A stretch of 64,000 nucleotides of DNA from assembly GCF_035917975.1 (NCBI RefSeq), contig NZ_CP109130.1:8122001-8186000 (forward strand), in the 5' to 3' direction. The position numbers and the translations under genes were made by a program. Below are positions 6,074 to 21,394 of the stretch, piece after piece; position 1 is the stretch's first letter, and each line of letters begins with the position of its first letter. A model generated the notes under the pieces. It did no database searches, was not told where the DNA came from, and saw only the letters and a program-made list of their open reading frames with translations. This DNA is from Streptosporangium sp. NBC_01756. GTDB taxonomy: Bacteria; Actinomycetota; Actinomycetes; Streptosporangiales; Streptosporangiaceae.

Positions 6074-6881
6074 GCGGATGGGGTTCTTCACCGACACGAG
6101 CGTCTGCATCGGGTGCAAGGCGTGTGAGGTCGCCTGCAAGGAGTGGAACGACATCCCCGACGACGGTTTCGTCTTCCGGGCCACCTCCTACGACAACACC
6201 GGCAGCCTGGGCGCGAGCACCTGGCGCCACGTGGCCTTCATCGAGCAGCCGGGCCGGGCGCCGGCCGCCCCGCGCCAGGGCGACGGCGACGGCGACGGCG
6301 ACGGCGGGCCCGAGGACATCGAGGGCTGGCTGATGTCCTCGGACGTGTGCAAACACTGCACACACGCCGCATGCCTGGACGTCTGCCCGACCGGGGCGCT
6401 GTTCCGCACCGAGTTCGACACCGTGGTGGTCCAGGCGGACGTCTGCAACGGCTGCGGGTACTGCGTGCCCGCCTGTCCCTACGGGGTGATCGAGCGCAGG
6501 GAGCGCGACGGCAGGGCGTTCAAGTGCACGATGTGCTACGACCGGCAGCTCGGCGGGCTGGAACCGGCCTGCGCCAAGGCCTGTCCGACCGACTCCATCC
6601 AGTTCGGGCCCCTGGACGAGCTGCACGCCCGCGCCGGGGAACGGCTGGAGCGGCTGCACTCCGAGGGCAGGCAGGAGGCACGGCTGTACGGTGCGAGCCC
6701 CGACGACGGCGTGGGCGGCGCCGGCGCGTTCTTCCTGCTGCTGGCCGACCCCGAGGTGTACGGCCTGCCACCCGATCCGGTGGTCACCACCCGTGACCTG
6801 CCCGCGATGTGGCGATGGGCCGGTGGGGCGGCCCTCTCCCTCGTCGGAGCCGTCGCCGTGTCCTTCTTGAGTAACCGGTGA
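6066..6881 (+). CDS. fdhB: formate dehydrogenase iron-sulfur subunit
   Basis: The electron-transfer subunit that carries electrons from the formate site toward the membrane; 271 residues. Ferredoxin-like cysteine groups are visible: CIGCKACEVACKEW near the N-terminus, CKHCTHAACLDVCPTG, CNGCGYCVPACPYG, and the pair CTMC / CAKACPTD, enough for four [4Fe-4S] clusters as in FdnH/HybA-type proteins. An aspartate-glycine run (GDGDGDGDGG, from a GGCGAC microsatellite at 6279-6306) is inserted between clusters. The last 25 residues form one hydrophobic helix, probably a membrane anchor. The start overlaps fdhA by eight bases, and its stop overlaps the next possible start in GTGA. Confidence 0.92.
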   Translation: MAERMGFFTDTSVCIGCKACEVACKEWNDIPDDGFVFRATSYDNTGSLGASTWRHVAFIEQPGRAPAAPRQGDGDGDGDGGPEDIEGWLMSSDVCKHCTHAACLDVCPTGALFRTEFDTVVVQADVCNGCGYCVPACPYGVIERRERDGRAFKCTMCYDRQLGGLEPACAKACPTDSIQFGPLDELHARAGERLERLHSEGRQEARLYGASPDDGVGGAGAFFLLLADPEVYGLPPDPVVTTRDLPAMWRWAGGAALSLVGAVAVSFLSNR

Positions 6882-7099
6882 CACCCGGCGGGGTTCCCGG
6901 GGTTCCCGGGGCTCTCGGGACTCCCAGGGTTCTCGGGACTCCCAGGGTTCTCGGGATTTTTAGGACTTTCGAGACTTTCGAGGTTCTCAAGGCTCCCCGG
7001 GCTGCTAGGACTTCCCGGATTTTCGGGGTTTCCGGGGTTCCCGGGAAGACGGTGGCAGACTGGTCGGAGGCCCACACGTCCCACCGGAGGCGGCGGTGA
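6878..7099 (+). CDS. possible 73-residue repeat protein between fdhB and the NrfD gene
   Basis: A frame from GTG at 6878, overlapping the fdhB stop in GTGA, to TGA at 7097-7099, which in turn overlaps the GTG start of the NrfD gene in another GTGA. The nine-base DNA repeat keeps the frame open and encodes three-residue periodic text such as GVPGVPGALGTPRVLG. Coupling at both ends is what a real operon gene would show. However, no Shine-Dalgarno is visible for it, the content is low-complexity, and the actinobacterial fdh operons I know lack such a gene. It may simply be translated spacer. Confidence 0.3.
   Translation: MTPGGVPGVPGALGTPRVLGTPRVLGIFRTFETFEVLKAPRAARTSRIFGVSGVPGKTVADWSEAHTSHRRRR
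6890..7042 (+). repeat. degenerate 9-base tandem repeat, about 17 units
   Basis: Units read GGGGTTCCC, GGGGTTCCC, GGGGCTCTC, GGGACTCCC, AGGGTTCTC and so on through a more T-rich middle back to GGGGTTTCC, GGGGTTCCC. The consensus is about GGGRYTYYC. Because GGGGTTCCC and its neighbours are nearly self-complementary, the transcript could fold on itself. The tract fills almost the whole spacer between fdhB and the NrfD gene. Confidence 0.85.
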
Positions 7100-8040
7100 A
7101 GCAGGAGCAGGCGATGGTTCCCGAGGCCGAGTTCCGTTCCTACTACGGACAGCCGGTGATCAAGGCCCCGGTCTGGCACGAGCCCCACATGCCGGTCTAC
7201 CTCTACCTGGGCGGCCTGTCCGGAGCTGCATCGGTGATGGGAGCCATGGCCGGCCTCACCGGGTACGACCGGCTCGCGCTCACCGCGAGGGTCACCGCGG
7301 CTCTCGGGGCGGCCGCCGGCGCCGGCTTCCTGGTCGCCGAACTCGGCCGGCCCGAACGGTTCCTCAACATGTTGCGCATCTTCAAACCCAGCTCGCCGAT
7401 GAGCATGGGCTCCTGGACCCTGGCCGCACACAGCACGCTGACGGCGGCCGCCGCCGCGTCCGCGCTCGCCACCGTCCTGCGTCCGGCGGGTGACGCCGCG
7501 ATTCTGGTCGCCGGGCTGACCACCGGCCCGGTGATGGCCACCTACACCGCGGTCCTGCTCGCCGACACCGCCGTGCCGGCCTGGCACGACGCCCACCGGG
7601 AACTGCCGTTCATGTTCGCCGGAAGCGCGCTGGCCAGTGCGGGGGCGGCGGGCATGCTGGCCACGCCCCGCGCGCAGGCGGGTCCGGCCCGAGCCGTGGC
7701 CGCGCTGGGGGCCGTCGCGGAGACGGTCGCCGGCATCGTCATGGAACGCCGGCTCGGGCTGGTCGGCGAGCCGTACCGCCAGGGCAGAGGGGGCCGGTTG
7801 ATGCGTACGGCCCGTGCCCTGACGGTGAGCGGCGGCCTGCTCACCGCGGTCGCCGGCCGCAGCCGAGCCCTCACCGCGCTGTCCGGCCTCGCCCTCACCG
7901 CGGGCTCGCTCTACCTCCGCTTCGGCGCACTGGAGGCGGGCAAGGCCTCGGCCGCCGACCCGAAATACACCGTGGTACCCCAGCGTCGGCGCCTCGAAGC
8001 AGCGGAGCCCGCCTCGGTCCCGCCGCCGTCACCGAGCTGA
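7096..8040 (+). CDS. NrfD/PsrC-like membrane subunit of formate dehydrogenase
   Basis: A 314-residue polytopic membrane protein of the NrfD/polysulfide-reductase membrane-subunit family. It would anchor FdhAB and pass electrons to the quinone pool. Family marks are the opening SYYGQPVIKAPVWHEPHMPVY, then a first membrane helix LYLGGLSGAASVMG, the loop LGRPERFLNMLRIFKPSSPMSMGSW, and several further hydrophobic helices. The GTG start has GGAGG five bases upstream; an ATG at 7114 is an alternative. The gene closes the fdh operon and is followed by a strong hairpin and selC. FdnI-type cytochrome b histidines are not evident, consistent with NrfD. Confidence 0.88.
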   Translation: MKQEQAMVPEAEFRSYYGQPVIKAPVWHEPHMPVYLYLGGLSGAASVMGAMAGLTGYDRLALTARVTAALGAAAGAGFLVAELGRPERFLNMLRIFKPSSPMSMGSWTLAAHSTLTAAAAASALATVLRPAGDAAILVAGLTTGPVMATYTAVLLADTAVPAWHDAHRELPFMFAGSALASAGAAGMLATPRAQAGPARAVAALGAVAETVAGIVMERRLGLVGEPYRQGRGGRLMRTARALTVSGGLLTAVAGRSRALTALSGLALTAGSLYLRFGALEAGKASAADPKYTVVPQRRRLEAAEPASVPPPSPS

Positions 8041-8101: not shown

Positions 8102-8194
8102 GGAGGCGTGTGGGCGCCTGGTGGCCCCCGCGGTCTTCAAAACCGACGAGGCCGAGGTTCTCGGCCTGGCGGGTTCGATTCCCGTCCGCCTCCG
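8102..8194 (+). tRNA. selC: selenocysteine tRNA (anticodon TCA)
   Basis: A 93-base tRNA gene with the acceptor arm GGAGGCG / CGCCTCC, anticodon stem-loop CGGTCTTCAAAACCG exposing TCA, a long variable arm (GAGGCCGAG / CTCGGCCT) and T-arm GCGGGTTCGATTCCCGT. The long extra arm and UCA anticodon identify tRNA-Sec, which is charged with serine and converted by SelA. CCA is not encoded. It sits 60 bases after the fdh operon, whose catalytic subunit needs it. Its 3' end is repeated imperfectly at 18204-18241. Confidence 0.95.
8157..8194 (+). other. putative attL: 3' end of selC
   Basis: The last 38 bases of selC recur in the same orientation at 18204-18241 with four substitutions; the 15-base stretch GGCGGGTTCGATTCC is identical. 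Duplicated tRNA 3' ends flanking foreign DNA are the normal footprint of tyrosine-recombinase integration. Confidence 0.6.
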
Positions 8195-8215
8195 CTGTCT
8201 CTGTGATCAGATGCC

Positions 8216-9709
8216 CTACGGTGCGATCGACCAGAGCTGGCAGGTGTTGTTGAGCCACATCCACAGCCGGGCCGGCGTGCCGTTCGCCGTGCCGCAGTTC
8301 TCGTCGTCGAGCACCATGCCGCTGTTCTCGACCACGAGCTCATAGCGGCCGTTGCCCGCGGGGATGACCGCCCACTGCTGGCACGTGTTGCCGAGCGACT
8401 CCCACAGGTTGACGGCCGTGCCAAGGGCCAGCCCGCAGTTGACCGCGTCGAGCACCTTGCCGGCGTTGACGTTGGTGATCGTCCACTTGTTCGCACCGAC
8501 GCTGTTGAAGCGCCACTGCTGGCACGTGTTGCCGAGCGCCTGCCACTGGTCGATCTGCGTGCCGTTGGCCGTGCCGCAGTTGACGGCGTCGAGCACCTTG
8601 CCGCTTGTGAGGTTCGTGAGCCGGTAGGTGGCTCCGTTCACGGGGAAGGTGACGCTCTTGCTGTAGCCGACGGAGACGACGTTGGCCTGCACCGCGTTCT
8701 CCGTGGCGTCACTCGGATAGCCGCTGGTCATGACGCCTTCGAAGAACGATCCGACAGAGCCGTTGCTGTTGTCGCCGCCGATGCCGAGGATGATCGCGCC
8801 TTGCTTGGTCATCGGGCGGTAGCCCGCCTGGGTCGGCAGCGCTCCGTTGTACCGCGTCGCCAGGCTGCCGGATTGCGCGTTGCCGTCCTTGATGGCGTAT
8901 GTCGAGGTGCCGTTGTTCTTCAGCATCGCCGTCACGAACGCGGAACTGCGGCCGGTGTTCGCGGTCCAGGAGCCGTTGCCGCCGGCGAACAATCCGTTCT
9001 CGAGGTCCGCCGCGACGCGCGGCCCGCCCGCGCACGGTGAGAACCAGCACAGCGTGCCGAAGTAGATCGCGTCCATGTCGCCGTTACCGGTGTCCATGTT
9101 GTTGGTCTCGGCGTTGCCGTAGTCGAAGCAGCACCGGTCGTTGACATGAGTGCCCTCGGTCACCATGTACATTCCCTCAGGCTGACTGCCGGTGGCGACG
9201 CCGTTCGTCGCGTTGTTGCGGTAGCCGTTCCCCGCGGAGATGTAGACGCCGTAGACCCTGTGGCCACCTGCTGTCACGGGCAGAGCCGCCGCGTTCGCGC
9301 CTTGGTCGGCTGTGGGATTGGCGCCGCCGCCGGGAGCGATCGTGAGGTCGTTGTGGCGCGACGTCTGGTCGTAGATGCGAACGATCGTGCAGTACGTGCC
9401 CGAGCAGAAAGAGTCCTGGGTCGCGGCGTTCGCGTAACCGCCGGCGCTGAGCACGCCGATGTTGGTCGTCGCGCCGTCGGACCAGCGCCGCACCTGGTAG
9501 AGCGCCCCGTTGTAGGAGCCGAAGAGCGCACGGGTGGTGCTGTGAGCGGCGACGCATGGCGTGCCGCCGCTCGCGTAGATGTCGCAGGACAACGTGCCGG
9601 CCGCCTGTGCCGTGCCTGGCACGGCGACCAGCGCGGTGACGACGAGCGCTGCGAAGGAGGCGACGGTGAGGGCCGTTCGCCGCCGGCGGTGCAGAGACCA
9701 GAAACCCAT
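8216..9709 (-). CDS. secreted GH54 alpha-L-arabinofuranosidase with ricin-type lectin domain
   Basis: A 497-residue secreted enzyme expected to release arabinose from arabinan or arabinoxylan side chains. Residues 1-37 are a signal peptide (RRRR, hydrophobic core, AQA-A). Residues about 38-350 match the GH54 catalytic domain of fungal AbfB: CCFDYGNAETNNMDTGNGDM contains the nucleophile, Glu201 here, and LGIGGDNSNG and EGVMTSGYPSD are family motifs. Instead of the fungal CBM42 arabinose-binding domain, the C-terminal 140 residues form a ricin B beta-trefoil (CBM13) with three repeats of VLDAVNCGTANGT and QQW type. A palindromic operator lies in its promoter, so it is probably repressed without arabinose-type inducers. 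Confidence 0.92.
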   Translation of the reverse strand: MGFWSLHRRRRTALTVASFAALVVTALVAVPGTAQAAGTLSCDIYASGGTPCVAAHSTTRALFGSYNGALYQVRRWSDGATTNIGVLSAGGYANAATQDSFCSGTYCTIVRIYDQTSRHNDLTIAPGGGANPTADQGANAAALPVTAGGHRVYGVYISAGNGYRNNATNGVATGSQPEGMYMVTEGTHVNDRCCFDYGNAETNNMDTGNGDMDAIYFGTLCWFSPCAGGPRVAADLENGLFAGGNGSWTANTGRSSAFVTAMLKNNGTSTYAIKDGNAQSGSLATRYNGALPTQAGYRPMTKQGAIILGIGGDNSNGSVGSFFEGVMTSGYPSDATENAVQANVVSVGYSKSVTFPVNGATYRLTNLTSGKVLDAVNCGTANGTQIDQWQALGNTCQQWRFNSVGANKWTITNVNAGKVLDAVNCGLALGTAVNLWESLGNTCQQWAVIPAGNGRYELVVENSGMVLDDENCGTANGTPARLWMWLNNTCQLWSIAP

Positions 9710-9772
9710 AGTGTGCCTTTCGTGTGCGGCGAGGCAGCGCAGTGCCCGGGGGGACCATTAGGAGAGGATGCT

Positions 9773-9788
9773 ATGTTAGCGCTAACAT
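9773..9788. promoter_or_regulatory. perfect palindromic operator upstream of the GH54 gene
   Basis: ATGTTAGCGCTAACAT is a perfect 16-base palindrome about 64 bases upstream of the GH54 start. The form, with central CG and GTTAGC arms, is typical of LacI-family sugar repressors. No candidate repressor is adjacent. Confidence 0.75.
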
Positions 9789-9809
9789 TCACATCAATTA
9801 AATTGCATT

Positions 9810-9821
9810 GTTAATGCTAAC
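9810..9821. promoter_or_regulatory. second, imperfect operator half-match
   Basis: GTTAATGCTAAC keeps the outer GTTA and TAAC arms of the palindrome 30 bases away. A weaker second site for the same repressor is likely. Confidence 0.5.
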
Positions 9822-10424
9822 CTAGATGTACACACACGCGTTTCGGTTATTAACGATTAATTGCAGGATTCCTTGATTCGGCACCGCCTGTATGGCTCTG
9901 TGCGCGGTGACGTGCGCCACGGGTCAATCGCCAGCGAACGCCCCGATATAACATGCAGGTTTCCGCTGTGTTTCGACCAAAGTGTCATCAACGATGCGAC
10001 GACTGTCAATACCCGGCGAAGATCGGCTTCTATTCCGTGGTGCGGATGGTGCGGCGTTCATCGTGCGCGCTGCGGGTGTTCGGGGTTGCGCTGTGTGGTG
10101 GGGGTGTTCGGGTTCTCGCTGTGCGCGCTGCGGTGGGTGGGTGTTCCGGCCGGCCGTCGCAGTCACCGTCTCGTTTTTCAGGCCTCCGGCCTGGCGGGCG
10201 CGACGGTTGCGCTTTTTTATAAGCCGGCCGGAACACCCACCCACCTCCGCGCCAGGCTGTCTCGCCGTACGGCGTGCGGACCGTAGTCGCTTGCTTTCGG
10301 GCCGCCCATGGGTCTCGCTGACGCTGAAGCGATCCGCTTGGGGCCGTTCAGGGCCGGTCGCCGTAGCTGACGCGTTCCTCTCCGACCAGTGCAGGGCCGA
10401 GCGCCGGGCTCTGCCCCCGAGGTG
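9822..10424. other. gene-poor stretch between the GH54 promoter and the IS element
   Basis: No credible gene. It opens AT-rich, then from about 10050 has GC-rich text with repeats of GTGCGCGCTGCGG and GGTGTTCGGG, followed by the inverted-repeat element at 10132-10245. The remainder before the insertion sequence holds nothing I recognise. Confidence 0.6.
10132..10245. repeat. 114-base element with perfect 23-base terminal inverted repeats
   Basis: Bases 10132-10154 are the exact reverse complement of 10223-10245 (left arm ends GTGTTCCGGCCGGC). Between them are an inner hairpin CAGGCC-TCC-GGCCTG and a GCGC-(7)-GCGC hairpin followed by TTTTTT. The 14-base core GGGTGTTCCGGCCG also forms the terminator stem at 22966-23005, so this may be a small repeat family, a MITE-like insertion or a large terminator. 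Confidence 0.7.
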
Positions 10425-10474
10425 TGGACACCTTGAATACCGGATGATGGAAATCCGGAGGCAAGGAGTTCCAC

Positions 10475-10804
10475 GTGGCGGTGAAGTCGTATCCGCCGGA
10501 GTTCAAGGCGGATGCCGTCGCATTGTACCTGTCCGATCCGGAACGGATGCTGGCCTCGGTGGCCGAGGACCTGGGGATCAGCCGGGAGACGCTGCGCAAC
10601 TGGGTGCGTCAGGCGCAGGTGGACGGCAGCGCGGGCGCGAAGGAGCGGGGCCCGGCGAGGAAGCCGGCGTGTGGCGCGCTTTCGTCCGACGACGTGCTGG
10701 AAGAGGAGAATAAGCAGCTCAAGGCCCGTATCCGGGCGCTGGAGACGGAGCGCGACATCCTGCGCCGGGCGGCCAAGTATTTCGCGGGAGAGACCAACTG
10801 GTGA
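10475..10804 (+). CDS. IS3-family transposase OrfA
   Basis: A 109-residue DNA-binding subunit: helix-turn-helix at about residues 8-50 (FKADAVALYLSDPERMLASVAEDLGISRETLRNW) and a C-terminal leucine-zipper coiled coil (EEENKQLKARIRALETERDILRRAAKYF). AAGGAG lies six bases before the GTG start. The stop overlaps the orfB start in GTGA. In IS3 elements OrfA and OrfB are usually joined by a -1 frameshift; orfB is in the -1 frame here, but I see no A-rich slippery run, so coupling by stop-start overlap is equally possible. Confidence 0.9.
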   Translation: MAVKSYPPEFKADAVALYLSDPERMLASVAEDLGISRETLRNWVRQAQVDGSAGAKERGPARKPACGALSSDDVLEEENKQLKARIRALETERDILRRAAKYFAGETNW

Positions 10805-11691
10805 GCCGCTTCCAGTTCGTCGCCGATCATCGAGGCGCCTTCGGCGTCAAGCGGCTGTGCCGGGTGCTGAAGGTGTCCCGCTCGGGGTTCTACCGGTGGT
10901 GCAAGGCGGCGCCGGCCCGGGCGGAGCGGGCCGCGGCCGATGCCGCGCTCGCCGAGGAGATCAGGCACATCCATGGTGAGTTCGACGGCACCTACGGCAG
11001 TCCGCGCGTCACCGCCGAGCTGCGCGCCCGGGGACGCGGGGTCAACCATAAGCGGGTGGCGCGGGTGATGCGCCGTTGCGGCATCGTCGGGCTGCACCTG
11101 CGCAAGAAGGTGCGCACCACGGTGCCCGAGCCGTCCCGGCAGAAGGTGCCCGACCTGATACGGCGGGACTTCACCGCGCCCGCCCCGAACCGTCGCTACG
11201 TCGGCGACATCACCTACCTGCCCGTCGGCGACGGCCGGTTCCTCTACTTGGCCACCGTGCTGGACCTGGGCTCACGCCGACTGGCGGGCTGGTCGATCGC
11301 CGATCACATGCGCACCGAGCTGGTGAGCGACGCGTTGCGGGCCGCCGCCGCGACGCGGGGCAGCCTGGACGGGGCGATCTTTCACGCCGATCACGGGGCG
11401 CAATACACCTCGGCCGAGTTCGCAGGGGTCTGCGCCGAGCTCGGTGTGCGCCAGTCCATGGGAGCGGTTGGCACCAGCGCCGACAACGCCGCCGCTGAGG
11501 CGTTCAATGCCACTCTCAAACGCGAGACGCTGCAAGGGACCAAGCGCTGGTCCTCGGCACGTGAGGCCCGCCTGGCGGTCTTCACGTGGATCACCCGCTA
11601 CAACACCCGCAGGAGACATTCCACCCTGGGCTACCTCAGCCCGATCGACTACGAACAGCAGACCATCGATAGGGTGCTGCTCGCCGCATAA
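10801..11691 (+). CDS. IS3-family transposase OrfB (DDE integrase core)
   Basis: A 296-residue catalytic subunit. An HTH_21-like region (EEIRHIHGEFDGTYGSPRVTAELRARG) is followed by a retroviral-type integrase core with the DDE triad: D in YVGDITYLP, D in HADHGAQYTS and E in NAAAEAFNATLK. The C-terminal motif YNTRRRHSTLGYLSPIDYE is characteristic of IS3 transposases. Full length and apparently intact. Confidence 0.93.
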   Translation: MSRFQFVADHRGAFGVKRLCRVLKVSRSGFYRWCKAAPARAERAAADAALAEEIRHIHGEFDGTYGSPRVTAELRARGRGVNHKRVARVMRRCGIVGLHLRKKVRTTVPEPSRQKVPDLIRRDFTAPAPNRRYVGDITYLPVGDGRFLYLATVLDLGSRRLAGWSIADHMRTELVSDALRAAAATRGSLDGAIFHADHGAQYTSAEFAGVCAELGVRQSMGAVGTSADNAAAEAFNATLKRETLQGTKRWSSAREARLAVFTWITRYNTRRRHSTLGYLSPIDYEQQTIDRVLLAA

Positions 11692-11704
11692 CGACCGGTG
11701 TCCA

Positions 11705-12402
11705 CCCTCCGGGGCGAGCCCCCATACGTACGAGCACACAGGTCACCCGGTAAACCCTCAATACATCGGCGGATGCGCTCCGGCATGCCTCCAGCGACGT
11801 TGTCCACTGCTCGCCTCCATGATCCGAATTTCCGCCCCGAGCAGCGTTATCGATTCTCAGATGCCGCGTTATATATGTCAACAGGATGCTCGTATGTTCG
11901 CGCAGCGTTACCAATCGGGCGACGTGCACTCCGGTTGGTTTCTTTCTCTCCTCTGCCGCCGGAGGAACACTTCCCGTCGCCAATTCCAGAGCCATGGGAG
12001 ACGAGGAAATCCGACACCTCACGTCAATTTTCTCAACGCGATCCCCATAATGCAGCAACGCAAAAAATATTCATAATGCAACAACGCAAGGAGCGGTATG
12101 CCGAGCGCGCCGGGTCGAGGAGGAACTCCTCAGGAACCAGCGGTCGCACTTGTGCGAAGACCACAGTCGGGTTGGCGCGGCGGTGCGGCTTTTCCGCCGG
12201 ACCTTCATGCCGGGTCGCAGCCATGGCACGAAGGTCCGGCGGGCGGCCGGTCGACAACCGCTGGTGGTGTCGCCCGCGTCCGCCGTGCAGGTGTCGGGGC
12301 CGAGGCCGTCGTGGGGCGGTGTCGCCCCCCTTGGCGGGTGCCTCCTCTAGCGGATTGCGGGCGCGCTCACCATGGCCCGGGGGCGGGGGTGGTGTGTTCG
12401 GT
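11705..12402. other. gene-poor stretch after the IS element
   Basis: No credible gene on either strand. The only structure I see is a direct repeat, CATAATGCARCAACGCAA, at 12046-12063 and 12072-12089, 26 bases apart. These could be paired protein-binding sites or a relic of insertion. Confidence 0.5.
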
Positions 12403-14184
12403 TCAGGGGCAGGTGACCAAGATGATGGAGATGACGGTGCAGCTGGCCGAGGCATTGTCGTTGGCCGGGTTGGGGTCGGCGGGGGCGCTGGTGGTGCGCA
12501 CACCGGCGACGGTTACCTGGCCAAGCGACAGCAGCGACAGCGGTACCCGGAACGTCTTGTCCACCGATGCTCCACTGGCGATGGCGCCGTAGGTGCAGGT
12601 GACCGTCGTCCCGGCGGTGGTGCAGCCGGCCGCCAGGTTGGTCGCACTCGCGCCTGCGGGCAGGGTCGCGGTCAGGGTGGCGGAGGTGACCGGGTCGGGT
12701 CCGGTGTTGTCGGCGGTCAGGGTGTAGCGCAGGTAGGGCACCAGGATGCCGAGCTGGGGCTGGGCGTTCAGGTTCACGTCGATGTCGGCGGCGGGCGGCG
12801 TGTTGATGGTGGTGTTTTCGGCGTCGGTGTTGTTGGTCGGGTTGGGGTCGGTCTCGGTGCCGGTGACGGTCGAGGTGGCGGTCAGGGTGCCGGTCGCGGT
12901 CGGGGTGACGGTGATCGTGATGGTGGCCGACGACGCGGCGGCGAGGTTGCCCAGGGTGCAGTTCACCGTGGGTGCGGTGATCGCGCATGAGCCTTGGGAA
13001 GGTGTTGCGGACACGATGGTGCGGGCGGCGCCGGACAGGGTGGTGGCCGCGCTCACTCCGGTTGCCGGGTCGGGCCCGTTGTTGGTGACGGTCACGGTGT
13101 AGGTGAGGGAGGCGCCCGAGACAACCGGATCAGGCGAGTCGGTGACGGCGACCGACAGGTCAGCGGTGGGCGCTGCCACTGGTGTCGGGATTGCGATACC
13201 GAACGGGAAGCTTCCGACGCCAATGGTGGCGGTGACGGTGTTGGTGGCGGTGTCGATCACCGACACGGTGCCGTCGTCGAGGTTGGCGGTGTAGGCGAAG
13301 GCGGAGTTGACCGCTATTCCGCCGGGGCCGTTTCCGACGCCGACGGTCGCGGTGACGGTGTTGGTGGCGGTGTCGATCACCGACACGCTGGCGCCGTAGC
13401 GGTTGGAGGTGTAAACGCGGGTGCCGGCCGGGTTGAGAGCGATGTCGTAGGGGTCGGTGCCGACGGGAATGGTGGCGGTGACGGTGTTGGTGGCGGTGTC
13501 GATCACCGACACGTTGTCGGAGTTGACGTTGCCGGTGTAAGCGCGGGTGCCCGCCGAGTTGAGCACCACCCCGTAGGGCGCGAGTGCGACGGCGATGGTG
13601 GCGGTGACGGTGTTGGTCGCGGTGTCGATCACCGACACGGTGCTGGAGCCGTCGTTGGCGATGTATGCGAGAGTTCCGGCCGAATTGACCGCGACTCCGC
13701 GGGGCCTGCTGCCGACGCCGATGGTGGCGGTGACGGCGTTGGTGGCCGTGTCGATCACCGACACGCTGCCGCCGGAGAAGTTGGTGACGTAGGCGCGGGT
13801 GCCGGCCGGGTTGAACGCGACCCCGTACGGGCCGCTGCCGGCACCGATGGTGGCGGTGACGGTGTTGGTGGCGGTGTCGATCACTGAGACGTTGTTCGAG
13901 CCGTTGTTGGCGACGTAGACGTGGGTGCCGGCCGGGTTGAACGCCGCCTTGATCGGGCCGGAGCCGACCGCGACGGTGGCGGTGACGGTGTTGGTGGCGG
14001 TGTCGATCACCGAGACGTTGTCCGAGCCGTTGTTGGCGACGTAGGCCAATGGCGCGACAGTCGCGTGCGCGGGCAGCGCGGCGAGGGCGGTGAGGCCGGT
14101 CATGGCCAAGGCGGTCAGCAGCGCGCACAGGGCTGCCATCGTGCGTCGCCATAAGGGCGTGACGACATGCGTGGTGGAGGGCAT
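12403..14184 (-). CDS. secreted seven-repeat YVTN beta-propeller protein with two DUF11 domains
   Basis: A 593-residue exported surface-type protein. The ATG at 14184 is preceded by GAGGA. Residues about 15-40 are a signal peptide (MAALCALLTALAMTGL to LPAHA). Seven repeats of about 42 residues follow, each carrying SVIDTATNTVTATI and an AYVTN-like strand, enough for one closed seven-blade propeller. Then come two DUF11 Ig-like modules (ADLSVAVTDSPDPVVSGASL; ADIDVNLNAQPQLGI) whose NNGPDPATGV and DNTGPDPVTSA motifs are diagnostic. No LPXTG or membrane anchor is seen, and it ends in CTVISIILVTCP. The repeats are very alike even at the DNA level. Function is probably adhesion or scaffolding, unproven. 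Confidence 0.88.
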   Translation of the reverse strand: MPSTTHVVTPLWRRTMAALCALLTALAMTGLTALAALPAHATVAPLAYVANNGSDNVSVIDTATNTVTATVAVGSGPIKAAFNPAGTHVYVANNGSNNVSVIDTATNTVTATIGAGSGPYGVAFNPAGTRAYVTNFSGGSVSVIDTATNAVTATIGVGSRPRGVAVNSAGTLAYIANDGSSTVSVIDTATNTVTATIAVALAPYGVVLNSAGTRAYTGNVNSDNVSVIDTATNTVTATIPVGTDPYDIALNPAGTRVYTSNRYGASVSVIDTATNTVTATVGVGNGPGGIAVNSAFAYTANLDDGTVSVIDTATNTVTATIGVGSFPFGIAIPTPVAAPTADLSVAVTDSPDPVVSGASLTYTVTVTNNGPDPATGVSAATTLSGAARTIVSATPSQGSCAITAPTVNCTLGNLAAASSATITITVTPTATGTLTATSTVTGTETDPNPTNNTDAENTTINTPPAADIDVNLNAQPQLGILVPYLRYTLTADNTGPDPVTSATLTATLPAGASATNLAAGCTTAGTTVTCTYGAIASGASVDKTFRVPLSLLSLGQVTVAGVRTTSAPADPNPANDNASASCTVISIILVTCP

Positions 14185-15272
14185 GAAGTTTCCTCGGGTG
14201 AGTCGAAGGGGGACGCCGCGCGCGATGACGTCTTCACACGCCTGGGTGCCCCGTTCACCCTCGCTCGCGTTGGAACCGGCCCGGATCAGGCGGCGGGACT
14301 GGTTCGCCGCATGTGTCGTGGCCGTTGACGCGTGACCAAACGCTGAATGGCGCGGTATCGGGGAGGGCCTCGCGCTGGCCGCAAGCTCATCTGCTCTCCC
14401 GCCGGTTGCGGCAGGCCCACACATCCGACGCGTGACAGGGCACGTGACGGAGAGCGATACGCGTAGAACCTTCCGTTATTTACCTACATTGCCGCCTCTG
14501 GCCTGACAACCGTCCTGGCCTACACCGGACACTCTCCTTGACTGAATGACCACATACGGTTACTGCCGTGATCGGGACGCCCGCCGATGCCGGCCTGCGG
14601 TGGCCGCGACGGTTGTGCCTGCGTAGGTGCCCGGCCCGCCGGCGGAACGGGTATCGGCGAAGCGGATTACGGCCAGTGAATGATCTCTTATTACGGACCG
14701 GCCGGGTCCTCGTGAAATAAACAGAAAGCATGGATGAAAACGGTTGCCTTTCTCGCGCAGTATTGGCCGTTCTCCATGCGGAAAATAATCAGACCATGTT
14801 CGTAGCGATAGCTGAAATAGCAAGGACCGCGAGTCAATGGCGCGGAGATCTCAGTCGAACCGAAAACCCTGCGCAGCGCACTCAACCTTTCTGTTGTTAT
14901 TTGCCACGCAATGTGATGTCTTGGTTGATAGTTCGTGTTGGGCTGGCGGTATCGGCGGGAAGTGCATCGCCGTCACCCAAGGCGCACATCGGTCCCGCGG
15001 AGAGAGGAGTCAGGCTGGGGGCAGAATCTGCTTAGGTGAAGGGGCAGAAGCTCTACAGCGCCGCCGGGCATGAGTCGCACGCGCCGGCCCACGGCGCCGA
15101 CGTGTGATATTCGAGCCGTTGTTGCGCGCCCGCCCTTGACGGGCGCGCACATCCAACTCTTTCGCGTGAGCGTGTTCACGCATGCATTTAATTCAGCCGC
15201 ATCATCTTGTGGTTTGTGATGCGCGGATGTCTTCGCGCGTTCTTCGGGCGTCAATGGTGAGGAGTTCTCTTC
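14185..15272. other. gene-poor stretch, AT-richer in its second half
   Basis: I see no supportable gene. The first 300 bases are the promoter side of the YVTN gene. From about 14680 to 14960 the composition falls below the window average, as expected of decayed or imported DNA. Short frames here match nothing I know. Confidence 0.5.
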
Positions 15273-15365
15273 GTGCACGATGAAAACCTGGTGAAGGTCT
15301 ACAAGGATCGTGAGTACACCTTTACGACAATGGTCCGCCACGACGGCATGGTCGTCGCCTTCGCA
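15273..15365 (+). pseudogene. 5' fragment of an unknown gene
   Basis: A GTG start with GAGGAG eight bases upstream opens VHDENLVKVYKDREYTFTT followed by MVRHDGMVVAFA, which reads like a normal protein beginning. Past about 15365 the text becomes the reverse complement of the adjacent recombinase fragment and stops looking like protein. I infer that its 3' part was deleted. I do not recognise the family with confidence. Confidence 0.45.
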
Positions 15366-15728
15366 GTGGGGGCTGATCGGCGTATCCAACGCAGCCAGGC
15401 GCATCGCGACGGTGCTCTCCGACCGCACCGACGCAGCCGAGACCAGCTGTGCCACCTGCTGCCCCGGGCGCCCGTCATGCAGCCACGCGATGAAGGCCGA
15501 GACTGCCGGCACGCCGAGCTCACTCCACCGGACGGCGTCTTCTCGCTGCTCCAGGAAGGTCCACCACTGCGCCAAGGAAGTCGCGTAGCCCCTCACCGTG
15601 TTCGGTGACCAGACCAGGCGGTGGGCCTCCAGCCACTCCTCCACCGGCATAACCGTTCGGTGGCTGGCGTCGACAACCGTCCACGTCCGTGGGCCGCCGG
15701 GTGGCCGCACGGTCATACAGCACGCCAT
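15366..15728 (-). pseudogene. 5' fragment of a tyrosine recombinase (phage-type integrase)
   Basis: About 115 residues of an N-terminal SAM-like core-binding domain: PVEEWLEAHRLVWSPNTVRGYATSLAQWWTFLEQREDAVRWSELGVPAVSAFIAWL, written here in part, then STVAMRLAALDTPISPHC. The catalytic domain with its R-H-R-Y residues is absent, and the frame downstream (to about 14973) has no integrase character. The break falls where the opposite-strand fragment also breaks, so a deletion joined two convergent genes. Intact, it could have been the integrase of the island. Confidence 0.7.
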
Positions 15729-15801
15729 GCCCTCGTTCCCTCATGTCGTTGAGGAACCGACGCTAATCGTGCAATGACATACCGTGATTACTTGTATTTA
15801 A

Positions 15802-16188
15802 GTTGTTACGAACGTTGGGGAGGGCGACAGAACGCCCCCAGATAACAAAGGTTTCGTACGGCTCAACCTCGCCCGACGTGACTTATCGCCGTCGACCATC
15901 GCCACCGCGCACCACATCTCGGTGCGCTACCTGCACCACCTCTTTCAATACGAAGGGCAGAGCCTCGGCCAGTACATCCGCCACCAGCGGCTGGAGCGCT
16001 GCCGCGCGGATCTGACCGACCCGCTCCTGAGCAATCAGAGCGTCGCGCAGATCGCAGCACGTTGCGGCTTTGCGGACGCCGCCTCGTTCAACCGCGTGTT
16101 CAAGACCGCCTACAGCGTGCCGCTCGGCGACTACCGGACCTCCCGGTTGCGAGATCGGGTGGACGACCGGCGAGCACTCCAGGGCTGA
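15802..16188 (+). pseudogene. C-terminal fragment of an AraC-family regulator
   Basis: The frame from 15802 to 16188 encodes only the DNA-binding half of an AraC/XylS protein: LARRDLSPSTIATAHHIS, YLHHLFQYEGQSLGQYIR, then SVAQIAARCGFADAASFNRVFKTAYSVPLGDYR, the two helix-turn-helix motifs. A TAA at 15799 cuts it off upstream, no start codon with a ribosome site is present, and the sensor domain is missing. The text closely resembles AraC regulators with a cupin-like N-terminal domain. Confidence 0.75.
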
Positions 16189-16338
16189 TACGCACAGAGT
16201 CCAGGTCACGGCACGAATAGGTCTATGGCCACGCCGGTCAGCCTGAACGTGCGGCTTACGCTCAGTGGGCTCGCCGCGGAGGCCTCCCAGCCGGAAGACG
16301 CTCCAGGCGGCCATGGACAGGAGGGAGCCGAGCGGCGG

Positions 16339-16878
16339 CTACTCCCCGGTGAGCCCGTCCACCGACTCCCGGAGGAGGTCGGCGTGGCCGTTGTGCCGTG
16401 CGTACTCCTCGATCATGTGGCTCAGGATCCATCGCAGGCTCGGTGCCCGGCCGTCGGGCCAGGTGCGCCGGGCCGGCCGCTCCAGGCCGCCGTCGGCCAG
16501 CGCCTCCGCGACCAGGGAACGGGAGCGGGCCACGGCGTCCTGCCAGAGCGCATGAAGCTGCTCGGGGGAGTCCTCGGCGGCCGAGTGCCATTCCCAGTCG
16601 GGGTCGGACTTCCAGTCCACCGCGTCCCATGGTGGCTGCCGGTCTCGCCCGTGCAGCCACCGGGAGAACCAGTCCTCCTCGACGTAGGCCAGGTGCTTGA
16701 GCAACCCGCCCAGGGTCATCGACGAGGCGCCGACGGTCGCCCTCAGGCCGGCCGCGTCCAGCCCCGCGCACTTCCACACCAGGGTCGCGCGCTGGAACTC
16801 CAGGAAGCCCAGCAGGGTGCCGGTCTCGTCGGCCGCGAGGGGAGGTTCCGGACGGCCCTGCTCATCCAGGTCGGTCAT
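16339..16878 (-). CDS. DinB-like / DUF664 family protein
   Basis: A 179-residue member of the DinB/YfiT four-helix-bundle superfamily, DUF664 branch, common in actinomycetes. Related bundles bind a metal with three histidines: LLKHLAYVEEDWF near residue 60 and MIEEYARHNGHADLLRE at the end carry candidate ligands. Some relatives act as mycothiol-dependent enzymes, but no reaction can be assigned here. No clear Shine-Dalgarno precedes the ATG. It stands alone between the AraC fragment and the oxidoreductase. Confidence 0.82.
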   Translation of the reverse strand: MTDLDEQGRPEPPLAADETGTLLGFLEFQRATLVWKCAGLDAAGLRATVGASSMTLGGLLKHLAYVEEDWFSRWLHGRDRQPPWDAVDWKSDPDWEWHSAAEDSPEQLHALWQDAVARSRSLVAEALADGGLERPARRTWPDGRAPSLRWILSHMIEEYARHNGHADLLRESVDGLTGE

Positions 16879-16995
16879 GGCGGAGAAGTCTAGGCCCTGC
16901 AGAGGCCGCGACCCCGGCCGCTGAAGGTGGAGACCGTCGCGTGGCTCCGGCCTCCGCCCGGTCCTGAAGAGGTCGCGATCCTCCAGGAGCGCAGG

Positions 16996-17961
16996 TCAGA
17001 TCATCAGGAGGGTCTTACCCAGGACGCTGCGGGACTCCATCGCCGCGTGGGCTTCGGCGGCGCGCTCCAGCGGGAAGGTCCGCCCGATGACCGGCCGGAG
17101 CCGGCCCTGCGCCGCCTGCGCCAGCGCATGCTCGATCCGTTGCCGTCCGCCCGTGCTCATGCCCATGAGCTGTTCGAGCCCGATCACGGTCACGCCCCGG
17201 CGTTCGGCGTCCTGCGGGGTGATCACGGTGGCCTGGCCGCTGGAGGCTCCGTGCACGGAGAAGCGTCCCCCTCGCGCGGTCACCTGGAAGGCCTCCCAGC
17301 CGATCTGCCCGCCGACCCCGTCGAAGACCACGTCGGGTCCTGCGCCTCCGGTCGCCTCCCGCACGTGTTCCGTCCAGCCGGTCTCCGAGTAGTCGACCAC
17401 GACCTCGGCGCCCAGGTCCCGCGCCAGGTCCAGTTTGCCCGGACCTCTGGCGGCGCCGACGACCCGCGCGCCGGCGGCGCGGGCCAGCTGCACCAGCAGG
17501 CTGCCCAGACCGCCGCCGGCCGCTTCGACCAGTACCCACTCCCCGGCGCGGATCCCGGCGTTCTCGACCAGGCCCACCGCCGTGCTGCCGTCGTGCAGGA
17601 GCGCCGCCGCCTCGGGCAGCCCCAGCCCCTGGGGAACCGCGATGAGATTCGCAGCCGCGGCCACGGCCAGTTCCGCGTTGCCGCCGGTGGTATCGGTGAC
17701 GACGCGTCGGCCCTCCCAGAGGGGGTCGACGCCCTCGCCGACCGAGACCACCCGCCCGGCCACGCCGCCCCCCGGGATGTATGGCGGCTCGGGCAGCGGC
17801 GGTCCCGGGGTGATCCCGCGCCGGAGCTGCGTCTCGACAAAGTTGATCTCGGCGACCTCGACACCGACGAGAACCTGCCCCGGTCCGGCGACGGGATCCG
17901 GCGCCTCTCCGGCCACCAGCACGTCGGGATCGCCGAACCGTGTCACCCGCACCACTCGCAT
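16996..17961 (-). CDS. zinc-type medium-chain oxidoreductase, quinone reductase-like
   Basis: A 321-residue NADPH-dependent quinone oxidoreductase of the MDR superfamily (QOR/zeta-crystallin branch). It has an N-terminal GroES-like domain (VEVAEINFVETQLRRG), nucleotide-binding loop EAAGGGLGSLLVQLARAAGARVVGAARG, and the closing motif LERAAEAHAAMESRSVLGKTLL. Zinc-ligand cysteines are absent, as in QOR. I chose the ATG at 17961 because AGAGGAG lies about eight bases before it; a GTG nine bases earlier is possible. A MerR/SoxR-type promoter precedes it, so induction by redox-cycling compounds is likely. Confidence 0.87.
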   Translation of the reverse strand: MRVVRVTRFGDPDVLVAGEAPDPVAGPGQVLVGVEVAEINFVETQLRRGITPGPPLPEPPYIPGGGVAGRVVSVGEGVDPLWEGRRVVTDTTGGNAELAVAAAANLIAVPQGLGLPEAAALLHDGSTAVGLVENAGIRAGEWVLVEAAGGGLGSLLVQLARAAGARVVGAARGPGKLDLARDLGAEVVVDYSETGWTEHVREATGGAGPDVVFDGVGGQIGWEAFQVTARGGRFSVHGASSGQATVITPQDAERRGVTVIGLEQLMGMSTGGRQRIEHALAQAAQGRLRPVIGRTFPLERAAEAHAAMESRSVLGKTLLMI

Positions 17962-18004
17962 GTAGTTCACTCCTCTGACCTGGACTCGGTAAACGCGCGA
18001 GCCA

Positions 18005-18035
18005 AGCCTGGTACCTCAACTTGGGTTGAGGTCAA
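18005..18035 (-). promoter_or_regulatory. MerR/SoxR-type promoter with 19-base spacer
   Basis: On the minus strand TTGACC (18035-18030) and CAGGCT (18010-18005) are separated by 19 bases, the long spacer diagnostic of MerR-family control. The spacer contains the perfect inverted repeat ACCTCAAC-CCAA-GTTGAGGT, close to the SoxR box CCTCAAGTTAACTTGAGG. It drives the quinone oxidoreductase gene. No MerR gene is adjacent. Confidence 0.75.
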
Positions 18036-18203
18036 CTCGGGACCTGTCCGGGCACGTGACCCGGCCGGGAAGGCAGGCACCCCCTGGACGGCCCCGGCGG
18101 CGGGCCGCGAGCCGTGCCCGCGCGTCTGGACGGTTCCCGGCGGGCTACGCCGAGTCGTCGCCGAAGGCCGAGGACGGTCGCGGTCTCGGAGTGGCTCCGG
18201 CGT

Positions 18204-18241
18204 GTTCCCGGCCCGGCGGGTTCGATTCCTGTCCCCCTCCG
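18204..18241 (+). other. putative attR: imperfect copy of the selC 3' end
   Basis: Thirty-four of 38 bases match the end of selC, in direct orientation, including the T-arm GGCGGGTTCGATTCC. No matching 5' acceptor strand (GGAGGGGG) lies upstream, so it is not a working tRNA. It ends 16 bases before the selA start. Confidence 0.6.
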
Positions 18242-18257
18242 TTCTATTTTCGTGTTC

Positions 18258-19547
18258 ATGGACCCACGGAGGCGTATTCCGCGCACCGACCTGGTGCTCG
18301 CCGATCCACGGTTGGCCGCGACGGCCGAGCGTCTGGGACGGTCGATCGTCAAGGACGCCGTGGCGCAGGCCCAGGAGCGCGTACGGCAGGGCGAGATCGG
18401 GCCCGAGGAGGTCGCGGACGTGGCGGTGGCGGCGCTTCCGCCGTACGCCACGAGCATGCGGCCGGTGATCAACATGACCGGGGTGCTGCTGCACACCAAC
18501 CTCGGCCGCGCGTCCCTGTCTCCGGCGGCGATCGCCGCGACGGCGGCCGTCGCGGGTTCGGCGGACGTGGAGTTCGACCTGGCCACCGGGGCCCGTGCCG
18601 GGCGCGGACGGGGTGCGCTGGAAGCCCTCGTGCGGGCCGTGCCCGCTGCCGAAGACGTGCATGTGGTCAACAACAACGCCGCCGCGCTCGTGCTGGTGGC
18701 CACCGCGCTCGCCGCCGGACGGGAGATCGTGATCAGCCGGGGCGAGCTGGTGGAGATCGGGGACGGGTTCCGCATCCCCGAACTGCTGGTCTCCACCGGC
18801 GCGAGGCTGCGCGAGGTGGGCACGACCAACCGCACCTCCTACGCGGACTACGCGGCGGCCGTGGGACCGGAGACCGGGTTCGTGCTCAAGGTGCACCCGT
18901 CGAACTTCCGGGTCGAGGGCTTCACCGGCTCGGTCGAGGTCGCGGCGCTCGCGGGCCTGGGCGTGCCGGTCGTGGCCGACATCGGTTCCGGCCTGCTCGG
19001 ACACGAGCCGTTGCTGCCTGAGGAGCCCGACGCGGCGGGCATGCTCGGAGCAGGGGCCGACCTGGTCACCGCCAGCGGCGACAAGCTGCTCGGCGGCCCG
19101 CAGGCGGGCCTGCTGCTCGGCCGGCGTGACCTGGTCGAACGGTGCAGGCGCCATCCGCTCGCCCGTGCCCTGCGGGTGGACAAGCTGACCCTGGCCGCGC
19201 TGGAGGCCACGTTGCGCGGGCCCGCCACCCCCCTTCACGAGGCGCTGCACGCCGATCCCGCGATACTGGGCAAGCGCGCCGGGATGCTCGCCGGCAAGCT
19301 GGCCGGGGCCGGAATCGACGCGAGAGCCGTACCGGCCGAGGCGACCGTGGGCGGCGGGGGAGCGCCCGGCGTGACGCTGCCCAGTGCGGCGGTGAGCCTG
19401 CCCGAGCGGTTCACCGTGCCGCTGCGGACCGGCGCGACCCCGGTCGTCGGCCGGGTGGAGGACGGCCGGCTCCTGCTCGACCTGCGGACCCTCCCTGCGG
19501 ACCGGGACGACGACGTGATGCGGGCGATCCTGGAGGCGGACGGCTGA
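18258..19547 (+). CDS. selA: L-seryl-tRNA(Sec) selenium transferase
   Basis: A PLP enzyme that converts seryl-tRNA-Sec to selenocysteyl-tRNA-Sec using selenophosphate; 429 residues. Hallmarks are PVINMTGVLLHTNLGRA (about 69-85), NNNAAALVLVATALA, SRGELVEIGDGFRIPE and the PLP-lysine motif TASGDKLLGGPQAG with Lys276. The ATG at 18258 was chosen because homology begins there; the upstream frame is tRNA-like sequence. The stop overlaps the selB start by one base (TGATG), so the two are translationally coupled. Its partners fdhA and selC are about ten kilobases away across the accessory segment. Confidence 0.95.
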   Translation: MDPRRRIPRTDLVLADPRLAATAERLGRSIVKDAVAQAQERVRQGEIGPEEVADVAVAALPPYATSMRPVINMTGVLLHTNLGRASLSPAAIAATAAVAGSADVEFDLATGARAGRGRGALEALVRAVPAAEDVHVVNNNAAALVLVATALAAGREIVISRGELVEIGDGFRIPELLVSTGARLREVGTTNRTSYADYAAAVGPETGFVLKVHPSNFRVEGFTGSVEVAALAGLGVPVVADIGSGLLGHEPLLPEEPDAAGMLGAGADLVTASGDKLLGGPQAGLLLGRRDLVERCRRHPLARALRVDKLTLAALEATLRGPATPLHEALHADPAILGKRAGMLAGKLAGAGIDARAVPAEATVGGGGAPGVTLPSAAVSLPERFTVPLRTGATPVVGRVEDGRLLLDLRTLPADRDDDVMRAILEADG

Positions 19548-21394
19548 TGCACGTCGTCGCGACGGCGGGCCACGTCGACCACGGCAAGTCCACGCTGGTC
19601 AGGGCGCTCACCGGGATGGAGCCCGACCGGCTGGCCGAGGAGCGGCGGCGGGGGCTGACGATCGAGCTCGGATACGCCTGGACGACGCTGCCCTCGGGCG
19701 AGCGGCTGGCCTTCGTCGACGTGCCCGGACACGAGCGGTTCCTCGGCACGATGCTGGCGGGGGTGGGCTCCGCGCCCGCCGTCATGTTCGTGGTGGCGGC
19801 GGACGAGGGCTGGATGCCGCAGTCGGAGGAGCACCTGGTCGCGCTGGAGGCCCTCGGCGTACGGCATGTCCTGCTCGTGGTGACCCGGGCCGACCTGGCC
19901 GACCCCGTGCCGGCGATCGGGCGGGCACGGGCCAGGATGGCCGCGATCGGCCTGGGCGAGATCGAGGCGCCGGCGGTGAGCGGCCGCACGGGACAGGGGC
20001 TCGACGAACTGCGGGAAGCGTTGGACCGGCTGGTGGCCGCGCTGCCCGTGCCCGACCCGGCGGCGCCGGTGCGGCTCTGGGTCGACCGGGCGTTCAGTAT
20101 GCGGGGCAGCGGCACGGTGGTGACCGGGACCCTGCCCGAGGGGACGATCGCGGTCGGAGACGAGCTGGCGCTCCCCGGCGGGCCGGTCCGGGTCCGGGGG
20201 CTGGAGAGCATGAAGGAACCCAGGGCCTCCGTGACCGGTGTGGCGCGGGTGGCGGTCAACCTGCGCGGGCCGGGCGTCCCCGAACGGGGTCAGGCGCTGG
20301 TCACACCGGGGGCGTGGACCTGCACCGACCTGGTCGACGTGCGGCTCTCCCCGGTCGGAGCCGTTGGAACGGCCGGACCCGTCGACGAGGCCGCAGACGA
20401 CGCGCCGGGAGGGGAGAGGTCCGCGCGGGCGCGGGTGCCGGGAGAACGGGGCGGGGGTGACCTGCCGCGCGGGCTGACGGTGCACATCGGGTCGGCGGCG
20501 GTGGTGTGCGAGGTGCGGCCCCTCGGCGGGCGGATCGCCCGGCTCCGCCTGGCCAGAGCGCTCCCGCTGCACGTGGGCGACGTACTGCTGCTCCGCGATC
20601 CCGGCCGGGACCGCGCCGAGGTGCGGGTGCTGGCCGGGGCGACCGTACTCGACCTGTGCCCTCCGGAGCTGCGCCGCCGGGGTGCGGCCCGGGAACGCGC
20701 GACCCGGCTCGCGCGGGCCCGGCCGGACGCGGCCTCGCTGCTCCGTACGCACCCCCTGCTCCGTGCCGGTGACCTGCTGGCCATGGGGTGTGCCCCGGAG
20801 GGAGAGCCGGTGTGCGGTGACTGGCATGCCGATCCGGCCTACTGGTCGGACCTGGGGGAGCGCCTGCCCCAGATGGTGCGGCGGTATGCCGCAGCGCACC
20901 CGCTGGAACCGGGCATGCCGGTGGAGGCGGCCCGGCACGAGCTCGGCCTGCCCGACCGGCGGCTGGTCACGGCGCTCGTACGGCGCCCGCTCACCGTCGC
21001 CGACGGCCGCCTCGTGAGCGGGCCCGCAGGCCTGCCCGAGCCGGTGGCACGGGCACTCGGACGGCTCGGCGCGGAGCTGTCCGCCCATCCCTTCCGGGCG
21101 CCGGAGGCCGGGCGGCTCGCCGAGCTGGGGCTGGGACCCCGGGAGTTGGCGGCGGCCGTACGGGCGGGGGCCCTGCTCCGGGTGGCCGAGGGGATCGTGC
21201 TGCTGCCCGGCGCGGACGTCCGGGCGGCGGCGTCGCTCGCCCGGCTGCCGCAGCCGTTCACGGTCAGTCAGGCCCGGCAGGCTCTGGACACCAGCCGCAG
21301 GGTCGCGGTGCCGCTGCTGGAACACCTCGATCGCAGAGGGCTCACCGAGCGGATCGACGAGGTCCACCGCCGGTGCCGTACGCCGTCGCCCTGA
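19547..21394 (+). CDS. selB: selenocysteine-specific elongation factor
   Basis: A 615-residue GTPase that delivers Sec-tRNA to UGA codons marked by SECIS hairpins. Residues 8-16 GHVDHGKST are the P-loop, DVPGHERFLGTMLAGV is G3, and VVTRADLAD stands in the G4 position. EF-Tu-like domains 2 and 3 follow, then C-terminal winged helices (for example TVSQARQALDTSRRVAVPLLEHLDRRGLTER), which bind the SECIS loop. An alanine/glycine-rich insertion near residues 270-305 looks actinobacterial. A start further upstream in this frame would only add sequence overlapping selA, so I used the ATG that overlaps the selA stop. Confidence 0.95.
   Translation: MHVVATAGHVDHGKSTLVRALTGMEPDRLAEERRRGLTIELGYAWTTLPSGERLAFVDVPGHERFLGTMLAGVGSAPAVMFVVAADEGWMPQSEEHLVALEALGVRHVLLVVTRADLADPVPAIGRARARMAAIGLGEIEAPAVSGRTGQGLDELREALDRLVAALPVPDPAAPVRLWVDRAFSMRGSGTVVTGTLPEGTIAVGDELALPGGPVRVRGLESMKEPRASVTGVARVAVNLRGPGVPERGQALVTPGAWTCTDLVDVRLSPVGAVGTAGPVDEAADDAPGGERSARARVPGERGGGDLPRGLTVHIGSAAVVCEVRPLGGRIARLRLARALPLHVGDVLLLRDPGRDRAEVRVLAGATVLDLCPPELRRRGAARERATRLARARPDAASLLRTHPLLRAGDLLAMGCAPEGEPVCGDWHADPAYWSDLGERLPQMVRRYAAAHPLEPGMPVEAARHELGLPDRRLVTALVRRPLTVADGRLVSGPAGLPEPVARALGRLGAELSAHPFRAPEAGRLAELGLGPRELAAAVRAGALLRVAEGIVLLPGADVRAAASLARLPQPFTVSQARQALDTSRRVAVPLLEHLDRRGLTERIDEVHRRCRTPSP

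Follow-up and report, generated by a model that had tools for sequence, protein, structure and literature searches.

Why should selC, the gene of the selenocysteine tRNA, lie about 10 kb away from selA and selB in one Streptosporangium genome, with unrelated-looking DNA in between? The stretch that raises this question (hereafter the window) comprises 64,000 nucleotides, bases 8122001-8186000 of a single-contig genome of 9.0 Mb. The original prediction, made from the letters of the window, was that an island had entered selC and split a formerly continuous sel cluster. Sequence comparisons lead us to a broader reading, to which we give a probability of roughly 0.9, namely that one or several mobile elements would have integrated site-specifically into selC and that these 10 kb are what erosion has left of them. 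The use of selC as an attachment site is supported, but the idea of a single island is not: selC is a landing site that has been used repeatedly, and the mobile DNA found there was probably introduced by enzymes closely related to ones encoded next to a serine tRNA gene.

The only tRNA gene of the window, identified by ARAGORN as tRNA-Sec (UCA), occupies positions 8102-8195 of the forward strand, and the Rfam tRNA-Sec model, scanned over window positions 1-24000, matches 8102-8193 with 75.6 bits. We take this gene as the left attachment site (attL) of the island. Its bases 56-93 (8157-8194) recur in direct orientation at 18204-18241 on the same strand, with 34 of the 38 bases identical (89%), so that the repeat and its four differences are as first described. 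Among the matches to selC across the whole genome this second stretch ranks second (E 2.2e-7), the next two reaching E 0.0025 over 28-30 bases, and in a local control the score of the stretch before selA was equalled at none of 1000 random places in the island. On the strength of the match and the control, 18204-18241 is best regarded as a piece of the 3' end of the host's original selC that has been displaced, i.e. the right attachment site (attR). It is separated by 16 bases (18242-18257, forward strand), again as first described, from the ATG of selA at 18258. selA itself covers 18258-19547 (forward strand, PF03841 2.1e-100) and selB 19538-21394 (forward strand, GTP_EFTU 3.9e-23 and SelB-wing_3 2.2e-16).

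The positions of the selC and selA matches were compared across 120 genomes, the window's own included, with limits of E<=1e-4 for selC and E<=1e-20 for selA. Among the 16 genomes of the genus, one has neither gene at these limits (G003) and one has selC downstream of selA (G008); the remaining 14 have both genes on one strand, selC being upstream. The gap between the two genes is 2.8-67.7 kb in 13 of these 14 and 14 bases in the last, G010, where TCTATTTTCGAACT links the end of selC to selA. The sequence TCTATTTTCG of this empty site is found in the window spacer, and stands unchanged before selA in eight of the 13 separated genomes (G000, G001, G002, G006, G009, G011, G012 and G014), the other five having a similar spacer. 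In the separated genomes the spacer follows the stretch before selA and not selC. Because the empty-site spacer thus accompanies the copy on the selA side, that copy would be the original host selC 3' end, and the 3' half of the present selC of the window is expected to be element-derived.

Empty sites also exist outside the genus, where at the sequence level 0 bases separate selC from selA in G048, 14 in G018, 24 in G016 and 28 in G023; G018 and G048 belong to the same family as the window genome. By coordinates, the distance is below 50 bases in G059, G076, G078, G091, G094 and G117, the selC match being partial in G059 and G117. These out-of-genus cases serve as examples and not as a tally, and other arrangements were met with, such as gaps of 143 bases (G081), 0.8 kb (G038) and 3.0 kb (G082), or selA placed before selC (G041 and G045). 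Relatives matching the joined ends are a known feature of islands in tRNA genes (tDNA islands), and G010, G018 and G048, with 14, 14 and 0 bases between the genes, provide it here; the original prediction had proposed to look for exactly such sites, and they bear out the ancestral selC-selA order that it had put forward. The possibility, also raised there, that the second copy is part of a conserved selA leader was rejected, as the empty sites have no second copy. The selA tree pairs the empty G010 with the occupied G014 as sisters (100/99) within an otherwise occupied genus, and well-supported branches force at least three changes of state, whether these are counted as gains or as clean excisions.

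The displaced copies themselves are in very different states. The stretch before selA scores above its local control in 10 of the 13 separated genomes of the genus (G000, G002, G004, G005, G007, G009, G011, G012, G014 and G015), and the few equal-scoring places in G002 and G012 are other selC copies. Across the separated genomes, the copies before selA range from 100% identity over 40 bases (G007) to undetectable (G001 and G013), a spread of decay that suggests attR sites of different ages and speaks against a single event. In G012, selC and three further copies stand in line, the first inner copy being followed by an integrase remnant and the second, as judged by eye, by a similar left-end motif. 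Displaced copies with changes in common are found in G009 and G011. Outside the genus, a 39-base copy with 97% identity lies about 0.75 kb after selC in G036. On contig C29 of G052, selC (2965-3058) has no selA nearby and a 56-base displaced copy (88%) lies 11 kb on, at 14122-14177, from which it appears that selC has been used outside the genus too. Several side observations concern the same genes. In the sister genomes G001 and G006, selC is divergent (83%) and lies about 25 kb from selA, and no displaced copy is clear, G006 being borderline. G015, with selC and selA 67.7 kb apart, still has a partial displaced copy before selA, and G023, G016 and G052 carry two or three full-length selC-like genes each, differing in sequence.

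The nearest relative of the window genome by selA (G002, 91%) harbors a recent element at this site. An uninterrupted tyrosine integrase of 461 amino acids (PF00589 1e-21) adjoins selC and reads towards it. After another 12.7 kb comes a 66-base selC copy with 98% identity, which begins in the anticodon stem, at selC position 29, and a second, decayed copy is present just before selA. C-terminal pieces of the same integrase family adjoin selC in G005 (182 residues) and G009 (45 residues), a piece of 30 residues adjoins an inner selC copy in G012, and G007 and G011 have left-end DNA in common with these selC elements. We infer that the window island, too, may have originated from this integrase family. 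At E<=1e-90, 14 of 341 family genomes and one of 394 drawn from the class contained an integrase match, that one being itself a family member. IMG/VR contigs hold relatives at 66% and 53% identity, the former at the end of a 58-kb contig, and no tRNA gene was found beside six IMG/VR relatives (of 80 fetched). The phage and plasmid collections yielded integrase relatives below 60% identity only (318 and 50 records), and the phage collection no selC match at E<=1e-4. No replication or FtsK-type transfer gene was recognized in the 12 readings of the G002 element that were scanned with Pfam, a subset of mechanically chosen frames, and PHROGs searches on 10 proteins, nine of them G002 readings, returned integrase, endonuclease and transposase matches only. 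Six records of the plasmid collection hold a whole selC-like gene, two of the six being larger than 5 Mb.

From these arrangements we infer the following history. Ancestrally, the fdh genes would have been followed by selC, then by a spacer of some 14 bases and by selA and selB. A tyrosine integrase would have recombined the 3' part of a tRNA-Sec gene carried by the element with the chromosomal 3' part, the crossover probably falling at or just after the anticodon arm, where it is placed because the shared stretch of the most recent copies begins there. The element would thereby have restored a whole selC at its left end, and the old 3' part would have ended up on the right, 16 bases before selA, where its sequence is drifting. 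The window island would later have lost its left end and its integrase while the IS3 element (an insertion sequence, IS) and other DNA accumulated. Of the features of tDNA islands, the window shows a whole tRNA gene at one border and, at the opposite border, a displaced fragment of it in direct orientation; an integrase inside, another such feature, is found in the relative G002, the window having a fragment of another family. The window island is classed as a remnant because it misses the integrase gene of a tDNA island, and by its sequence it reads as an eroded relic of one.

The nearest full-length relatives of the G002 integrase (73-75% identity) adjoin a gene for tRNA-Ser(UGA), in G009, in G191 (a Planobispora rosea contig) and in G072 (a Planomonospora venezuelensis contig); the G191 copy has one TAA in one match and none in another. 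About 1400 bases, for the most part the integrase gene, are shared at 75% identity between the DNA after selC in G002 and the DNA after tRNA-Ser in these three genomes. Position 31, at the anticodon loop, is where the nearest displaced tRNA-Ser fragment begins (GTCTTGAAAACCG) in both G009 and G072; a search of G191 as far as the contig end revealed no such fragment. A second integrase clade, about 42% identical to the first, is present beside tRNA-Ser(UGA) in G046, tRNA-Sec in G043 and tRNA-Met in G138, and both clades are supported (99/99 and 100/100) in a small, unrooted tree of 10 integrases. The anticodon arms of tRNA-Sec and tRNA-Ser, GCGGTCTTCAAAACCG and GCGGTCTTGAAAACCG, are one base different, which leads us to propose that the same integrase lineage may move between tRNA-Ser(UGA) and tRNA-Sec. 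Two switches would be the minimum if each clade of the unrooted 10-integrase tree is counted separately. We see a little better than an even chance that this integrase family, which here is nearly confined to one actinomycete family, has switched at least twice between tRNA-Ser(UGA) and tRNA-Sec(UCA), the arm with its one-base difference serving as a common docking site, selC becoming a hot spot once an element has a Sec 3' half, and each integration replacing part of tRNA-Sec. Further tRNA-Ser fragments start at position 24 in G009 (95.5%) and at position 37 in G072 (81%), with two in line in each genome.

Several results weigh against integration at selC as the source of all this DNA. No copy above control stands before selA in G001 (246 of 1000 random places as good) and G013 (772 of 1000), and G006 is borderline (7 of 1000); outside the genus, none was found directly before selA in G036 (585 of 1000) and G026 (814 of 1000). 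The window has neither an integrase nor a left end of the selC integrase family, and a leftward extension of its displaced copy to the anticodon arm through the motif GCGGTCT was unsupported, 1351 of 4000 random places being as good. A PF00589 search of six genomes (E<=1e-5; G000, G005, G011, G012, G013 and G015) gave a single match between selC and selA, the G005 piece, and integrase relatives at E<=1e-60 occur in 10 of 200 genomes of the family, so that most separated sites would have lost the integrase or used another enzyme. Composition, which the original prediction had proposed as a further check, gave a divided answer: the island has a lower GC content than the rest of the window (67.1% versus 71.0%), but the GC content at third codon positions of the cargo (0.88-0.92, five genes measured) is not separable from that of selA, selB and fdhA (0.91-0.94), and the part at 16.2-18.2 kb is GC-rich (72.9%), so that composition would not mark it as foreign. 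Finally, after its recent copy G002 has (15999-16044 of locus L039) a decayed duplicate comprising the selA leader and the first codons, with a local score of 25 where the null reached at most 15 in 3000. Simple integration would not predict this; the selC 3' end and the start of selA may have travelled together on an earlier element.

This duplicate would fit better with a history in which tandem duplication or homologous recombination at selC-selA made the second copy, and insertion sequences and illegitimate recombination later brought in the DNA between the copies, with no integrase involved; the IS3 element of the window, where a matching integrase is missing, would also be accommodated. 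We nevertheless hold this to be very improbable, as the repeat covers only the 3' part of selC, keeps its orientation and, in recent copies, begins at the anticodon arm; in addition, selC in G002 adjoins an uninterrupted integrase, pieces occur in G005, G009 and G012, and tRNA-Ser(UGA) in G009 and G072 shows the same layout. The enzyme could alternatively have been the tyrosine recombinase whose N-terminal fragment lies inside the island at 15384-15728 (reverse strand), a member of a different family also using selC. The fragment is genuine: although its Pfam score is weak (PF02899 1.8e-4, 22.2 bits for a cut-off of 22.3), its residues 2-116 are 61% identical to a 411-residue protein that passes PF00589. 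It belongs, however, to another family than the integrases that adjoin selC in related genomes. The selC loci retrieved gave no relative at E<=1e-3, the 11 short loci (2.0-3.3 kb) in which relatives of the fragment occur are without a tRNA gene, and it lies in the middle of the island beside other gene fragments. It was rejected as the selC integrase, and an insertion by its parent enzyme is very improbable.

A third possibility, a variant of integration at selC and not its opposite, is a single old insertion, already present in the genus ancestor, whose contents were later turned over. The occupation of 13 of the 14 genomes and the common changes in the displaced copies of G009 and G011 would agree with it. 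We consider it unlikely in view of the decay gradient from G007 to G001 and G013, the in-line copies of G012, the two copies of unequal decay in G002, and the empty G010 inside the group. The cargo of the window is likewise not common to relatives. Against 30 other regions, the island DNA matches (blastn, E<=1e-5) only in the selC copy and the spacer, and its proteins have only distant counterparts there (30-34%), the IS3 protein in G002, the DinB-type protein in G005 and the oxidoreductase in G013. The sharing of the same intervening genes by all relatives, which would have spoken against an island, was thus not observed, and repeated integration at selC remains our preferred reading.

Islands at selC are a known kind. 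In enterobacteria, the locus of enterocyte effacement (LEE), SHI-2 and phage phiR73 occupy this gene, and the elements described here resemble them in being tyrosine-integrase islands at the 3' part of tRNA-Sec that keep the tRNA whole, use it as a hot spot and carry differing cargo. They differ in belonging to another host phylum, and in that selC here lies directly upstream of selA, the island splitting the sel cluster. A tRNA-Sec gene is also the bacterial attachment site (attB) of the Pf-tRNA-Sec filamentous prophages of Pseudomonas aeruginosa, which differ in attaching through 27 bases at the extreme 3' end and in having an integrase of the XerC superfamily, each integrase type of Pf prophages being bound to one of five sites (PMC7549136). 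The Islander collection recognizes tDNA islands, tandems included, by a regenerated tRNA gene and a displaced fragment at their ends, and lists the anticodon loop among the standard classes of crossover site; by their regenerated tRNA, displaced fragments and tandems the selC islands match this class as it is set out in the sections consulted (PMC4383910). The main text of that paper does not contain the string "selenocyst", and its sections examined hold no Ser(UGA)/Sec pairing (PMC4383910). Actinomycete integrative and conjugative elements, as presented in the portion of the source covered, share with the selC elements a tyrosine integrase, tRNA 3' ends as targets and actinomycete hosts; unlike them, the G002 element showed no replication or FtsK-type gene in its 12 scanned readings, and "selenocyst" is absent from the main text of the source (PMC3218068).

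Searches of the open-access literature brought up no report of selC islands in actinomycetes recognizable by its title or the start of its abstract; in PMC8492726 the string "selC" is found once, as the name of an author. The present results extend selC as a landing site to actinomycetes, and the empty, recent, in-line and decayed states found within one genus make a good setting in which to follow the gain and erosion of islands in tRNA genes. The most interesting part is the Ser/Sec pairing. With tRNA-Ser(UGA) and tRNA-Sec as neighbours of close integrases, it offers a direct test of how integrase specificity changes, in a situation where part of an unusual tRNA gene would be repeatedly rewritten by mobile DNA.

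The genes upstream of selC give it a client. An open reading frame at 2882-6073 (forward strand), which, following the original prediction, we take to be fdhA, coding for the formate dehydrogenase alpha chain, has an in-frame TGA at codon 187 and is open when TGA is read as selenocysteine (U187 and the final TGA being the only ones), which makes its product the putative user of selC. It is followed by fdhB for a 4Fe-4S subunit (6066-6881, forward strand, Fer4_11 1.6e-22) and a gene for an NrfD-like membrane subunit (7096-8040, forward strand, PF03916 3.4e-11).

Inside the island, profile searches agree with the contents first listed, namely a tyrosine-recombinase fragment, an IS3 element, gene fragments and cargo. 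The gene nearest to selC, with its stop codon 20 bases away, codes for an alpha-L-arabinofuranosidase B catalytic domain with a ricin-type lectin (8216-9709, reverse strand, PF09206 8.4e-151 and PF14200 6.1e-47) and was found at E<=1e-90 in one of the 16 genus genomes, the window's own. The IS3-family element (10423-11706, forward strand, ends placed by eye from TGTGGACACC and GGTGTCCACC) has two reading frames, 10475-10804 and 10801-11691 (transpos_IS3 8.9e-97, HTH_Tnp_1 4.9e-14). Further cargo is a YVTN beta-propeller/DUF11 protein (12403-14184, reverse strand, TIGR02276 1.7e-98 and PF01345 2.5e-31). Beyond the recombinase fragment lie the C-terminal helix-turn-helix fragment of an AraC-family regulator (15832-16188, forward strand, PF12833 4.3e-19) and two GC-rich genes, for a DinB-fold protein of the mycothiol-S-transferase family (16339-16878, reverse strand, PF04978 2.1e-42) and a zinc-type quinone oxidoreductase (16996-17970, reverse strand, PF00107 1.4e-26), whose best match in other genomes (77%) lies in G002 at another place of that genome.

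Some smaller features of the island were also noted. Abutting the inverted recombinase fragment is the start of a forward-strand frame at 15273-15395; Pfam gave no match to the forward-strand reading frame 15273-15605, and the antisense of 15273-15395 matches places in G011 and G004 at 53-59%. Between the arabinofuranosidase gene and the IS3 element, at 10125-10252, lies an inverted repeat whose 30-base arms are 93% complementary and 68 bases apart. Upstream of the arabinofuranosidase gene, inspection by eye revealed a perfect 16-base palindrome, ATGTTAGCGCTAACAT (9773-9788), which presumably resembles the operators of LacI-type sugar regulators.

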